Shown here piece by piece: positions 50,939 through 54,853 of a stretch of 64,000 nucleotides of DNA. The DNA comes from Lagopus muta (taxonomy: Eukaryota; Chordata; Aves; Galliformes; Phasianidae), in assembly GCF_023343835.1 (NCBI RefSeq), contig NC_064438.1, forward strand, positions 58,366,578-58,430,577, written 5' to 3'. The notes under the pieces were generated by a model. That model had not been told where the DNA came from, made no database searches, and was given only the letters and a program-made list of their open reading frames with translations. The translations under genes were made by a program, and so were the position numbers. Numbering within the stretch: position 1 is the first letter of the stretch; every line of letters starts with the position of its first letter.

Positions 50939-50962
50939 AAAGGGAGAGAGAAAGAGGAGGGA

Positions 50963-51088
50963 GGAAAAGAGGGAGAGGAGAGAGGAGGAGAGCAGATACA
51001 TTCCCTGCTGCGCTCCGGGCCAGCAGGAAAAGAGGGAGAGGAGAGAGGAGGAGAGCAGATACATTCCCTGCTGCGCTCCGGGCCAGCA
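50963..51088. repeat. perfect 63-bp tandem duplication
   Basis: Two identical, adjacent 63-bp units (50963-51025 and 51026-51088). Each has a purine-rich half (GGAAAAGAGGGAGAGGAGAG) and a mixed half (ACATTCCCTGCTGCGCTCCG). No mismatch is seen between the units, so the duplication is recent or actively homogenised. It lies about 35 bp past the inferred BMP4 cleavage site. Because 63 is divisible by three, it leaves frames open on both strands; these are not evidence of coding. Confidence 0.95.
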
Positions 51089-51141
51089 GCACCCCGAGAG
51101 GTGAGACACAAAATGCATTTACCTTTAAAATAATGACTCAT

Positions 51142-51336: not shown

Positions 51337-52181
51337 TCAGCGGCACCCGCACCCCTCCACCACCATCTCCTGGTAGTTTTTCAGCACCACCTTGTCATAC
51401 TCATCCAGGTAGAGCATGGAGATGGCGCTCAGCTCCGTGGGCACGCAGCAGGCCTTGGGGATGCTGGAGTTGACGGAGTTGACCAACGTCTGCACGATGG
51501 CGTGGTTGGTGGAGTTGAGGTGGTCGGCCAGGGGGAAGGGGCAGTCCCCGTGGCAGTAAAACGCCTGGTAGCCCGGGGGGGCCACGATCCAATCGTTCCA
51601 ACCCACGTCGCTGAAATCCACATAGAGAGCGTGGCGGCGGCAGTTTTTTTTGTTCTTGCGGGAACGTTGGTGCTTGGGGCTGCGGCGGGCCCTGCGGGTC
51701 AGCGCGTGGCCTCGTCCGTCGTGCCCGAAAGTGACCAGGAGCGGCCTGAGCTGCGCCCAGTCCCCGCCGTGCCCTTGAGGTAAAGATCGGCTAATCCTGA
51801 CGTGTTTGCCCTGATGAGTCTGTGCCTGGTGGAGGTGGGTCACCTCGATCACCAGCCCGTGGTTCGGCTGCTTGTCCTTGGTCCACCGGATCACGGCTGG
51901 GCTCACATCGAAGGTCTCCCAGCGCGTCACGTTGTGGTGCACCAACCGCGTGTCCAACAGGCGCGTAATGGCCTGCGAGCGCTCCGACAGCGGCTTCATC
52001 ACTTCGTAAATGTTTATCCGGTGGAAGCCCCTCTCCCACGCCGCGCTCGGCTCCTCCACCTGCTCCCGGTACAGCCGCAGCTCCGCCGACGAGATCACCT
52101 CGTTGTCCGGCACGCTGCTGAGGTTGAAGACGAAGCGGATCCGCGGCGCTTCGCTGGGACCCGGGACGCTCTCCAGGTGCT
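51337..52181 (-). other. BMP4: BMP4 coding exon 2 (prodomain end and mature ligand)
   Basis: Begins after a CAG acceptor (52184-52182) with AG completing the Glu-124 codon, then HLESVPG. Ends at the TGA stop at 51339-51337. Encodes residues 124 to 404, including all of the mature ligand. Its codons are GC-rich at third positions, giving the exon CpG-island-like composition. Confidence 0.95.
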
Positions 52182-53435
52182 CTGAATGGGTGCAGGGAAG
52201 GGGGGAAAACGGGACAAAAGAACGAAACGGGAGCGCGTCAGCCTCGGGGCACGCAGCCACAGCCCCGGCGCCGTCCCGGCCCGCATTCACCTGCCTGGCT
52301 CAATTACCCCGTGCATCCCAATCGCAGTCGCAGCGGTCCCGGTGCCGCGCGCACTCCTCCGCACTCTGACCCCTTCCCTCCGCCTCTCTCCCACTTCGGA
52401 GGAGGTTTTTCCCCTTTTGCTTCCCCCCCTGCGGCTCTGAAGCAGAGGGGAGCACAGAGCTGCCTTGTTACGGGGCGCAGGGGGAGAAAGCGAAGCAAAT
52501 TCCAAAGCCGTAATGATGCGGCTGGATTAATAATTCAGATTTACTTTGGAAAAGAAACATCCGCTAGGAAACATTTGGATCAGATTACAAGGGCCTATTG
52601 AATAAACCTTATAAACACGCAGCTGTAAGTATTAAATTCGAGGAGGGGTTCTTGGGGGGAGAAGTTTTCGTTGGTTTTTTGTTTGTTTGTTTGTTTTTGT
52701 TTTTGTTTTTCCTTAAGAGCAAAACCAGGCAGCGATCGCTTTGGAAGTTCAAAAGAAACACCGCGGGGGTGGGCGACCTCCCGCCCTCATTCGCTCCCGC
52801 ATCGGATGCATTAAATCCACGCGAGCCCAGCAACGATCCCGTGGCACAGGGACCGAGGGACAGAGTCGTCAAAGTGCTCCAACACCCTGAAACAGCCACG
52901 GGATGCTGGAAAGCCCGGCAGCACGCTGTCACCCGCAAACCGCACGCGTCGGGAGCGTTTTTCCTCCCGTAAAAAGTGAAGAGGCGGGCACAACCCGCTC
53001 CTAAACGCATCGGTGAGCTCCCGAGCGCTGCCGGGGCTGGGAATTTCCCTCCTCCCATCACTGACCTTCATGGTGGAAGCTCCTCACGGTGTTGGCCCGG
53101 CTGGTCGATCTCTCGGGATACTGCAGGCTGATCTCCTGGAGGCTCTCCTCCTCTTCTCCGGACTGGAGTCGATAGAGATCCAGCATGTAACTGGGGATGA
53201 CGGCTGATTTGCTGGGCTGGGGCCGCCTTCGCAGCCCAAACATCTGCAGCAGAGTCGTTTCGAAACCCCGCAAGAGTTCATGGCTTTGGGCAGAGCGGCG
53301 TCCGGATCCGGCTTGTCCCTGAAGCTCTGCTACTTTCTTCCTGCCGGTCTCGGGGATCAGGCTAGCATGGTTGGTACCTCCCAGCAGGACTTGGCATAGT
53401 AGGATGACCATCAGCATTCGGTTACCAGGAATCAT
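51337..53435 (-). CDS. BMP4: bone morphogenetic protein 4 (two coding exons)
   Basis: Secreted TGF-beta superfamily ligand that signals through BMP receptors and SMAD1/5/8 and patterns mesoderm, neural tube, limb, tooth/beak and eye. The coding sequence joins 53435-53066 and 52181-51337 (370 + 845 nt), giving 404 residues. A signal peptide (residues 1 to about 20, [18 protein letters not shown]) is followed by the prodomain to residue 290. Two proprotein convertase sites are visible: RISR at 252-255 (the S2 site) and RRARR ending at 290 (the S1 site). The mature ligand, residues 291-404, starts SPKH, has a basic heparin-binding stretch ([12 protein letters not shown]), and carries the seven cystine-knot cysteines at 304, 333, 337, 368, 369, 401 and 403, ending GCGCR. 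N-glycosylation sequons lie at 143, 207, 346 and 361. The start was chosen because MIPGNRM is the conserved BMP4 N terminus. BMP2 is the nearest alternative, but the N terminus and prodomain match BMP4. Confidence 0.98.
52500..52640. promoter_or_regulatory. candidate intronic enhancer of BMP4
   Basis: AT-rich, repeat-free block in a GC-rich gene. It contains GCGGCTGGATTAATAATTC near 52518 (OTX/PITX-type GGATTA plus TAAT), TTTACTTTGGAAAAG near 52541, GGATCAGATTACAAGGGCC near 52577 and a TAAGTATTAAATTCG end. No reading frame. The composition contrast inside the intron suggests constraint. Function is inferred. Confidence 0.4.
52674..52711. repeat. (TTTG)n microsatellite in BMP4 intron
   Basis: GTTTGTTTGTTTGTTTTTG-type repeat on the plus strand. 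It reads CAAA/CAAAAA on the BMP4 strand. Simple repeat. Confidence 0.85.
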
Positions 53436-53442
53436 GGTGTCT
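53066..53442 (-). other. BMP4: BMP4 coding exon 1 (signal peptide and early prodomain)
   Basis: Starts after a CAG acceptor (AG at 53444-53443) with only seven bases, AGACACC, before the ATG at 53435-53433. Ends with G before the GTCAGT donor (53065-53060). Encodes residues 1-123 plus the first base of codon 124. The AGACACCATGATTCCTGG start region agrees with human BMP4 mRNA as remembered. Confidence 0.95.
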
Positions 53443-53899
53443 CTGGGGTGTAAAAAACGCAACAACAAACGACAAGGAAAGTCAGGATGAGAAGCGAGCC
53501 CCCCCACCCCCCCCCCCCACCCCTCCTCTCCTCCTCCTCTTCCGAAGAAAGTTGAAAAATACGAAAAAAAAATACATGGCAAAGCGAGATGAGAAGGAGC
53601 CAGCGGGGACAGGACGGCTCCCGGGGCATCGCGGCCGCTGCGGGAAGGGGCGCGCGGCGCGGCGGGGCGCGGAGCTGCGGGTTCGAATCCCGCTGCGGGA
53701 CGCGGAGACAAAAATAAAGTTAAAAAAGAAGAAAAGAAAAGAAAAAAAAAAAAAAAAAAAAAAGGAAATAATTTTTTTTTTTTAAAGCAAAAAATAAAAA
53801 TCGGCATAAAAAAAAAAATAACAATAATAAAAAAGCCAAGGCGAGGAAGAAGAGGGCTGTACTCACTGACAGCAAGCAAGGCATATCAGCACAGTCCAT
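53422..53899 (-). CDS. BMP4 upstream ORF, 17 codons, spliced, overlapping the main start
   Basis: Reads 53899-53867 in the 5' exon ([11 protein letters not shown]), then, after splicing at 53442, RHHDSW and a TAA at 53424-53422. It ends 14 nt inside the BMP4 coding region, in another frame. Its ATG sits in a strong Kozak context (AGAATCATGG, A at -3 and G at +4), while the BMP4 ATG has A at -3 but A at +4. I recall the human transcript having the matching segment, GAATCATGGACTG, a MPC-type middle and the same RHHDSW end, so the frame appears conserved. Expected role: lowers or regulates BMP4 translation. Conservation is from memory and untested. Confidence 0.7.
53499..53523 (-). other. G-run cluster near BMP4 3' splice site
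   Basis: Runs of 7, 12 and 4 C on the plus strand, read as G on the BMP4 strand, 56-80 nt upstream of the acceptor. With the nearby GGAGGAGG-type bases, a G-quadruplex in the nascent RNA is plausible. Confidence 0.6.
53677..53693 (+). other. perfect tRNA-type T-arm / B-box motif
   Basis: GCGGG TTCGAAT CCCGC forms a 5-bp stem with a 7-nt TTCGAAT loop, and contains GGTTCGAATCC, an exact match to the RNA polymerase III B-box consensus. The acceptor-like TGCGGGA follows, but no matching 5' acceptor strand, D-arm/A-box or anticodon arm is present upstream, so this is not a complete tRNA gene. Confidence 0.6.
53702..53835. repeat. A-rich low-complexity tract in BMP4 first intron
   Basis: Long A runs broken by G or T, including about 23 consecutive A at 53741-53763 and a T run of 13 at 53771-53783. 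On the BMP4 strand it is mostly T. Confidence 0.9.
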
Positions 53900-54080
53900 G
53901 ATTCTGGAGAGCCAGCGCGGACCCAGCGCGCCGAAAGCCTCCGGGGCAGCGGCTGCCGAGCGCCTCCCGCGATCGCCGCCCGGGCGCAGTGCGGCCGCCG
54001 CCGCCGCCGGCCCCGGTTTTCTCCCGGCCCCGCAGTCACGTGGAGCCGCTCACCACCCCCCCGTCGCCCCCCCACCCCCC
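53867..54080 (-). other. BMP4 5' noncoding exon (3' end supported, 5' end unknown)
   Basis: The 3' end at 53867 is set by the GTGAGT donor and by the resemblance to human BMP4 5'UTR (CTGGCTCTCCAGAATCATGG here, TTGGCTGTCAAGAATCATGG remembered in human). The upstream limit is not visible; the transcription start could lie anywhere in the GC-rich block up to about 54240. Carries the upstream ATG at 53899-53897. Confidence 0.65.
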
Positions 54081-54345
54081 CGGCCCGGCTCGGCCCGGCC
54101 CGCCGCCCCCGGCCCGCCCCCGTCCGGCCCGGCCCCGCGGGGGACGGCCCGACCCGCCCCGCCGCCCGCGCCTGGTTCTCCCTCCAGGGAGGGGGGAGGC
54201 GGCGGAGAGCTGCGGTCGGGCGGGGAGGGGTCCGCGGGGTGAGCTCAGGTGGGCGGCACCGTGGTGTCCCTTAAGTCCCCCCTTCGGTTTGGCCCCTCTC
54301 AGGTGCGTCCCGCGGGACGCGTCCCCGAGGGGCTGCGTTAACCCT

Positions 54346-54853
54346 GCTCTCTGCCTTCGGTTCCCACCTGAAATCGGAGTTTTCTCTCCTTTCCCTCTGG
54401 AATAAAGCTCATTCCCTCCGGGCCGGGTTCCCTGACCTCACGGGGGACACGTGTCCACAGCACGGTACCAATAGGGACACCCAAAAGAATGCTTCCTCTC
54501 CTGAATGTGCCAAAGGTTTCAGTGACGGCCAGATTTGGGGCTGAGTTGAAAGCCCAGGGCTCAAAGCTGCTCCCCAGCAGGGTGTGGGGATGGAGTGGTT
54601 GGTCACTGGGAGCAATGGGGTGGTCTGGAGAGGGCACTCCTGGGGTGGGAGCCCTGATGAAGAGTGATGGGGTGCCACAAGCAGACAAGGTGCAGACTGA
54701 ACAATCCCATGGTAAAGAAAGAGTTCCTCCAGAGTGTCAGATTCATCCCTTTGCCCTCCTGGGTTGGATAAATCACCACCCGTAGACAGAAAAGTTAATG
54801 AGATTACAGGACCAAAAGACACAGTCAGAGGGTCGGCCACAGGAACTCCTCAT
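54346..54853. other. BMP4 proximal upstream flank
   Basis: GC content falls off. No gene or repeat recognised before the first upstream CR1. Confidence 0.45.

Follow-up and report, generated by a model that had tools for sequence, protein, structure and literature searches.

In this work, we analysed a 64,000-nucleotide stretch of Lagopus muta DNA (hereafter the window) and found that BMP4 is preceded by an upstream open reading frame (uORF) that opens in the 5' noncoding exon, runs across the predicted splice junction and closes inside the BMP4 coding sequence (CDS). This overlapping frame probably acts as a brake on BMP4, lowering its output by capture of scanning ribosomes. A regulatory uORF is the likely reading, and leaky scanning, repression, decay and selection are inferred; the element is of an ordinary, common kind and may have been kept from bird to human.

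Identification and layout of the BMP4 gene

The gene was identified as BMP4 because the chicken BMP4 cDNA primers (PMC5007334) matched exactly at both ends of the gene (20/20 at the start and 18/18 at the end), whereas those of chicken BMP2 fitted less well, with one mismatch in 18 for the reverse primer and at best 6/20 for the forward primer. The open reading frame that holds the second coding exon carries the TGF-beta and TGF-beta propeptide domains of Pfam, and its closest solved chains in the PDB comparison were those of BMP2. The complete protein counts 404 amino acids and its stop codon ends at 51337. According to the splice consensus, the noncoding exon would end at 53867 on the minus strand (CTGTCA/GTGAGT) and be spliced to 53442. 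The resulting layout is as follows:

53443..53866, minus strand: predicted intron between the two halves of the uORF, 424 nt, GTGAGT...CCCCAG (splice consensus)
53442..53066, minus strand: first coding exon of BMP4, with its CDS part at 53066..53435 (scripted read)
53433..53435, minus strand: BMP4 start codon (script; matches the published chicken BMP4 primer)
51337..52181, minus strand: second coding exon of BMP4, CDS with propeptide and TGF-beta domain (script, Pfam and PDB)

The 424-nt intron is devoid of stop codons in the BMP4 frame and has an ATG at 53807 in that frame (53058..53879, minus strand). On the sequence, a transcript retaining this intron could make an N-terminally extended BMP4.

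Architecture of the overlapping uORF

Assuming the predicted splice, the uORF comprises 17 codons, 11 of them in the noncoding exon and six, followed by the stop, in the coding exon:

53867..53899, minus strand: first part of the uORF, ATG (53899) and 10 codons, in the noncoding exon (direct and scripted read)
53882..53884, minus strand: second ATG of the uORF, codon 6 of the same frame, with G at -3 and C at +4 (sequence)
53422..53442, minus strand: second part of the uORF, RHHDSW and TAA, in the coding exon (script)

The uORF start lies in the context AGAATCATGG, with A at -3 and G at +4, and the BMP4 start in the context GACACCATGA, with A at -3 and A at +4. Kozak's rule (purine at -3, G at +4) ranks the former above the latter, and the G at +4 thus makes the uORF start the better one. 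In the spliced mRNA, 40 nt would separate the two starts, which are in different frames, and the uORF stop (TAA) ends at 53422, i.e. 14 nt inside BMP4. Without this TAA, the frame would continue for 19 sense codons to the next stop. Upstream, the next ATG was found at 54412, 513 nt away (scan as far as 54700), so the uORF ATG is presumably the first AUG of the mRNA, unless the leader is longer than 513 nt or has a further upstream exon. The frame thus combines the features of an overlapping uORF (uoORF), namely an upstream out-of-frame AUG (given the predicted splice), a stop inside the main CDS and an initiation context able to recruit ribosomes.

The original prediction of an ATG in a strong Kozak context in the 5' noncoding exon was borne out, and so was that of a frame crossing the splice junction to overlap BMP4 by 14 nt, which both the direct and the scripted read returned. 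It had further proposed that BMP4 codons force the half of the peptide in the coding exon; this is so only for the part beginning with the second His (HDSW and the stop), the first 7 nt of this half, which cover Arg, His and one more base, being noncoding.

As a null model, 5000 first-order Markov leaders were generated on the model of the 203 nt around the uORF. Any ATG was present in 94 % of these leaders, an out-of-frame ATG opening a frame that runs into BMP4 in 66 %, and an out-of-frame ATG with both a purine at -3 and G at +4 in 34 %. Since such ATGs are frequent in the Markov leaders, the presence of the uORF alone is not significant, and the case rests on conservation.

Conservation of the uORF

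Primers taken from published papers cover the BMP4 start region and are uninformative on the ATG at 53899. Some zebrafish and mouse primers carry cloning or Kozak tails upstream of the start, and these letters were excluded from the native sequence. Identity with the window reached 24/24 for human, 24/24 for mouse, 24/25 for zebrafish and 21/22 for Xenopus; a second human primer, located deeper in the exon, showed 2/24 differences. The uORF letters from the BMP4 ATG to the TAA are identical in the primers of zebrafish, Xenopus, mouse, human and chicken. The TAA requires that Gly4 of BMP4 be encoded by GGT and followed by AA, and GGTAA is found in the primers of all five vertebrates, which also agree at the third codon positions of Ile2 and Pro3. 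The single difference of the zebrafish primer is the base directly after the uORF stop, and Xenopus primers read CATC where the window has CACC, 2 nt 5' of the BMP4 ATG, a His to His change in the uORF if these letters are native. The conservation of the stop could be due to the coding of BMP4, to codon choice or to the stem predicted below.

Strings from this region were also searched for in paper text. The string AGACACCATGATT is present in the available text of PMC10562473, and the GGC form of the start string in that of PMC2796875, which is on collagen genes by its title; the other alternative Gly codons were unmatched in the paper text. Antisense strings gave matches in the paper text available, none of them on BMP4 by title. 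Neither the splice-junction strings nor the noncoding-exon strings had a match in the searched text, where the BMP4 start string did match. Patterns for the uORF exon and patterns for the BMP4 start returned no match in viral contigs and none in prokaryote genome contigs.

The noncoding half was compared with the human BMP4 leader, which we take to have the same uORF start, the same length of 17 codons and the same stop; the comparison of the presumed human peptide with that of the window includes MDCYYMPCFLSRHHDSW. On this assumed human sequence, 78 of the 86 nt across the junction are identical, as are 13 of the 16 nt 5' of the uORF ATG, and this last identity goes beyond what peptide constraint explains. 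In the noncoding-exon half, four of the 11 codons would differ and eight of the 11 residues would be the same: Y4A, Y5D and F9L presumably alter the residue and the change at C8 is presumably silent, few changes as these are (n=4). Random single changes in codons 2-11 are expected to be nonsynonymous in 71 cases out of 90, close to the three out of four observed, so this pair of sequences gives no sign of peptide constraint. Silent changes, i.e. one among the four codons differing from the presumed human sequence and one in the Xenopus primers, are too few to weigh and show no excess. From bird to human, the frame looks to have been kept and the peptide less so, as far as these letters indicate.

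The original prediction had proposed either a regulatory uORF or a constrained peptide. The latter was set aside as the main reading, since three of the four codon changes relative to the assumed human sequence alter the residue. The former is retained as the best reading; translation of BMP4 uORFs in human cells is reported in the available part of PMC13432870.

Possible control of BMP4 translation

The uORF would act as follows. Scanning 43S complexes would first reach the uORF AUG, in its strong context, and then the in-frame AUG of codon 6. According to the scanning model, an upstream AUG in the better context takes many complexes and the main frame is translated through leakage. Ribosomes initiating at the uORF would terminate beyond the BMP4 AUG, 14 nt into the CDS, without making BMP4, which would instead be made by complexes leaking past the uORF AUGs. 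A minor share might arise by reinitiation, either through a step back to the BMP4 AUG or at two downstream Met codons:

53409..53417, minus strand: Met7 and Met9 codons of BMP4, 4 and 10 nt past the uORF stop, possible reinitiation sites (sequence)

Starts at Met7 or Met9 would yield the same ligand with a slightly shorter signal peptide that retains most of its hydrophobic core; the Met7 codon also occurs in the primers of zebrafish, mouse and human. We take these starts as minor because reinitiation usually favours longer spacing. The uORF stop lies 356 nt 5' of an exon junction. Under the decay rule, a stop more than 50-55 nt before an exon junction exposes the mRNA to nonsense-mediated decay; as this distance is exceeded, use of the uORF may feed the mRNA to that pathway. 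Selection would bear less on the peptide than on the start, its context, the frame and the stop.

That BMP4 depends on leaky scanning can fairly be inferred, the alternatives being reinitiation or transcripts without the noncoding exon. By human numbering, the human BMP4 start is placed in exon 3 in the part of the source available, so BMP4 leaders can differ.

In the available part of PMC13432870, Ribo-seq of human HaCaT keratinocytes infected with T. mentagrophytes is reported to reveal two translated uORFs in the BMP4 5'UTR. The study thus resembles ours in the gene and in uORFs of its 5'UTR called translated by Ribo-seq; it differs in having two uORFs whose positions and peptides are unstated in that part, which makes them candidate counterparts of the uORF of the window, and its authors infer enhancement from correlation. 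After infection, uORF translation and BMP4 translation efficiency both rose while the transcript level was unchanged, according to the same text. These data support the use of BMP4 uORFs; a simple brake would not be expected to give such a joint rise. A brake and the reported data could be reconciled by reinitiation or by a general increase of initiation on the BMP4 mRNA. Deletion of the uORFs is named there as future work. Judged by title or abstract opening, and with supplements outside the scope, none of the other matches listed dealt with a BMP4 uORF. In the text available, PMC4776370, PMC11473369 and PMC12076418 name BMP4 for other reasons, and in PMC4583406 the uORFs are those of Nanog and c-Myc with BMP4 as a signal; these four candidates were rejected.

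Predicted pairing of the two starts

Folding of the spliced junction predicted that CCAGAAUCAUGG, at the uORF start, pairs with CCAUGAUUCCUGG, at the BMP4 start, with additional UGU/ACA pairs:

53896..53907, minus strand: 5' arm of the predicted stem, CCAGAATCATGG, which contains the uORF start codon (predicted fold)
53425..53437, minus strand: 3' arm of the predicted stem, CCATGATTCCTGG, which has one bulged C and contains the BMP4 start codon (predicted fold)

As the arms belong to different exons, the 424-nt intron separates them in the pre-mRNA. The 63-nt hairpin alone has a minimum free energy (MFE) of -23.1 kcal/mol. Eight of the nine pairs of its core had pairing probabilities of 0.98-1.0 in contexts of 90, 160, 280 and 441 nt, and the ninth 0.50-0.63. 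The human leader, as we assume it, keeps the nine-pair core at -15.1 kcal/mol, the UGU/ACA pairs being absent. The hairpin is no known RNA family or tRNA by our searches (no Rfam match at the gathering score and no tRNA match).

Other ATG sites of the window served as control, on both strands, excluding those within 25 nt of either start and those within about 30-40 nt of the window ends. Six of the 2279 other ATGs bind the BMP4 start region as well as the uORF start does, and three have an in-register run of at least nine. Among CATG sites (n=688), three bind as well and three have such a run; for CATGG sites (n=224), the corresponding counts are two and three. The run was reached by 171/200000 random ATG pairs and by 1296 random CATG pairs, draws less than 40 nt apart being scored as misses. 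When the flanks were shuffled with both AUGs fixed, the energy was matched in 11/1000 cases for the wider stretch and in 54/1000 for the hairpin alone. The MFE structure contained AUG-AUG pairing in 560/1000 shuffles. The folding tool's own shuffles gave a z of -1.27, 22/200 being as good. In these models, the pairing of the two starts appears moderately unusual relative to the controls; it was found post hoc and is aided by the self-complementarity of CATG.

Alternative explanations

The junction might be conserved as an RNA-structure element, i.e. for a hairpin that forms after splicing and gates both starts in a helicase-dependent manner, the uORF being partly a by-product. Such an element would account for the identity 5' of the uORF ATG; the energy of -23.1 kcal/mol, the probabilities of 0.98-1.0 for eight of the nine core pairs and the few equals among 2279 other ATGs speak in its favour, together with the 9-bp core presumably kept in human. 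However, the hairpin was noticed only after looking, and CATG being self-complementary, such starts pair easily (three of 224 CATGG sites reach a run of nine). The shuffles moreover reproduce the AUG-AUG pairing (560/1000) and at times the energy (11/1000 and 54/1000; z -1.27), and the inner UGU/ACA pairs are missing from the human fold as we assume it, so that we consider this explanation unlikely. A more specific version, in which a conserved hairpin assembled by splicing selects the start, its unwinding exposing both starts and the better upstream one winning, appears very doubtful on the folding models. If true, it would make the dose of this morphogen depend on helicase activity and initiation stringency.

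A fortuitous ATG would leave the conservation to splicing, to transcription-factor sites near the exon end or to the BMP4 start itself. This would agree with the adjoining splice donor and with the overlapping out-of-frame ATGs of 66 % of Markov leaders, but not readily with the strong start context, with the single frame shared by the two leader ATGs nearest BMP4 or with the start and stop that we take to be the same in human, and it seems quite improbable. The explanation that we hold to be the most improbable is that the 17-residue product itself acts, e.g. by stalling its own ribosome: eight of the 11 residues of the noncoding half are presumably shared with human and the sole change in Xenopus primers is silent in the uORF frame, but three of the four codons that differ from the assumed human sequence alter the residue, and HDSW and the stop are dictated by BMP4 codons. 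The translation of BMP4 uORFs reported in human, in the part of PMC13432870 available, likewise argues against a chance uORF.

Comparison with known systems and significance

BMP4 is dosage-sensitive, and a translational brake at its start would add a directly testable layer of dose control. Variants removing the upstream ATG, the uORF stop or the stem would be candidates for altered BMP4 output. A heterozygous BMP4 stop variant has been described in association with Stickler syndrome and renal dysplasia (PMC6460578, available text). The uoORFs created in ENG by 5'UTR variants (PMC10582052 and PMC12274349, as far as their available text goes) resemble the BMP4 uORF in their upstream AUG and their overlap with the main CDS; they are disease variants, whereas the BMP4 uORF belongs to the window sequence as it stands. 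Likewise, the uORFs described by ESUCA (PMC7530721), which covers chicken, human and zebrafish, and by Crowe 2006 (PMC1402274) are kept across distant animals, but according to the available text they were picked for peptide conservation, unlike the BMP4 uORF, whose pattern, as seen here, is not peptide-like. The term 'BMP' is absent from the main texts of PMC7530721 and PMC1402274, a listing in the supplements being possible.

Other features of the locus

Two repeats were observed around the gene. On the 5' side, very G+C-rich tandem repeats lie at 54060..54167, upstream of the end of the noncoding exon, and are perhaps part of a promoter CpG island. A 63-bp unit is present in two tandem copies with 100 % identity at 50962..51089, 3' of the BMP4 stop, in the 3' UTR or flank; this pair may have arisen by recent duplication or reflect an assembly artefact.
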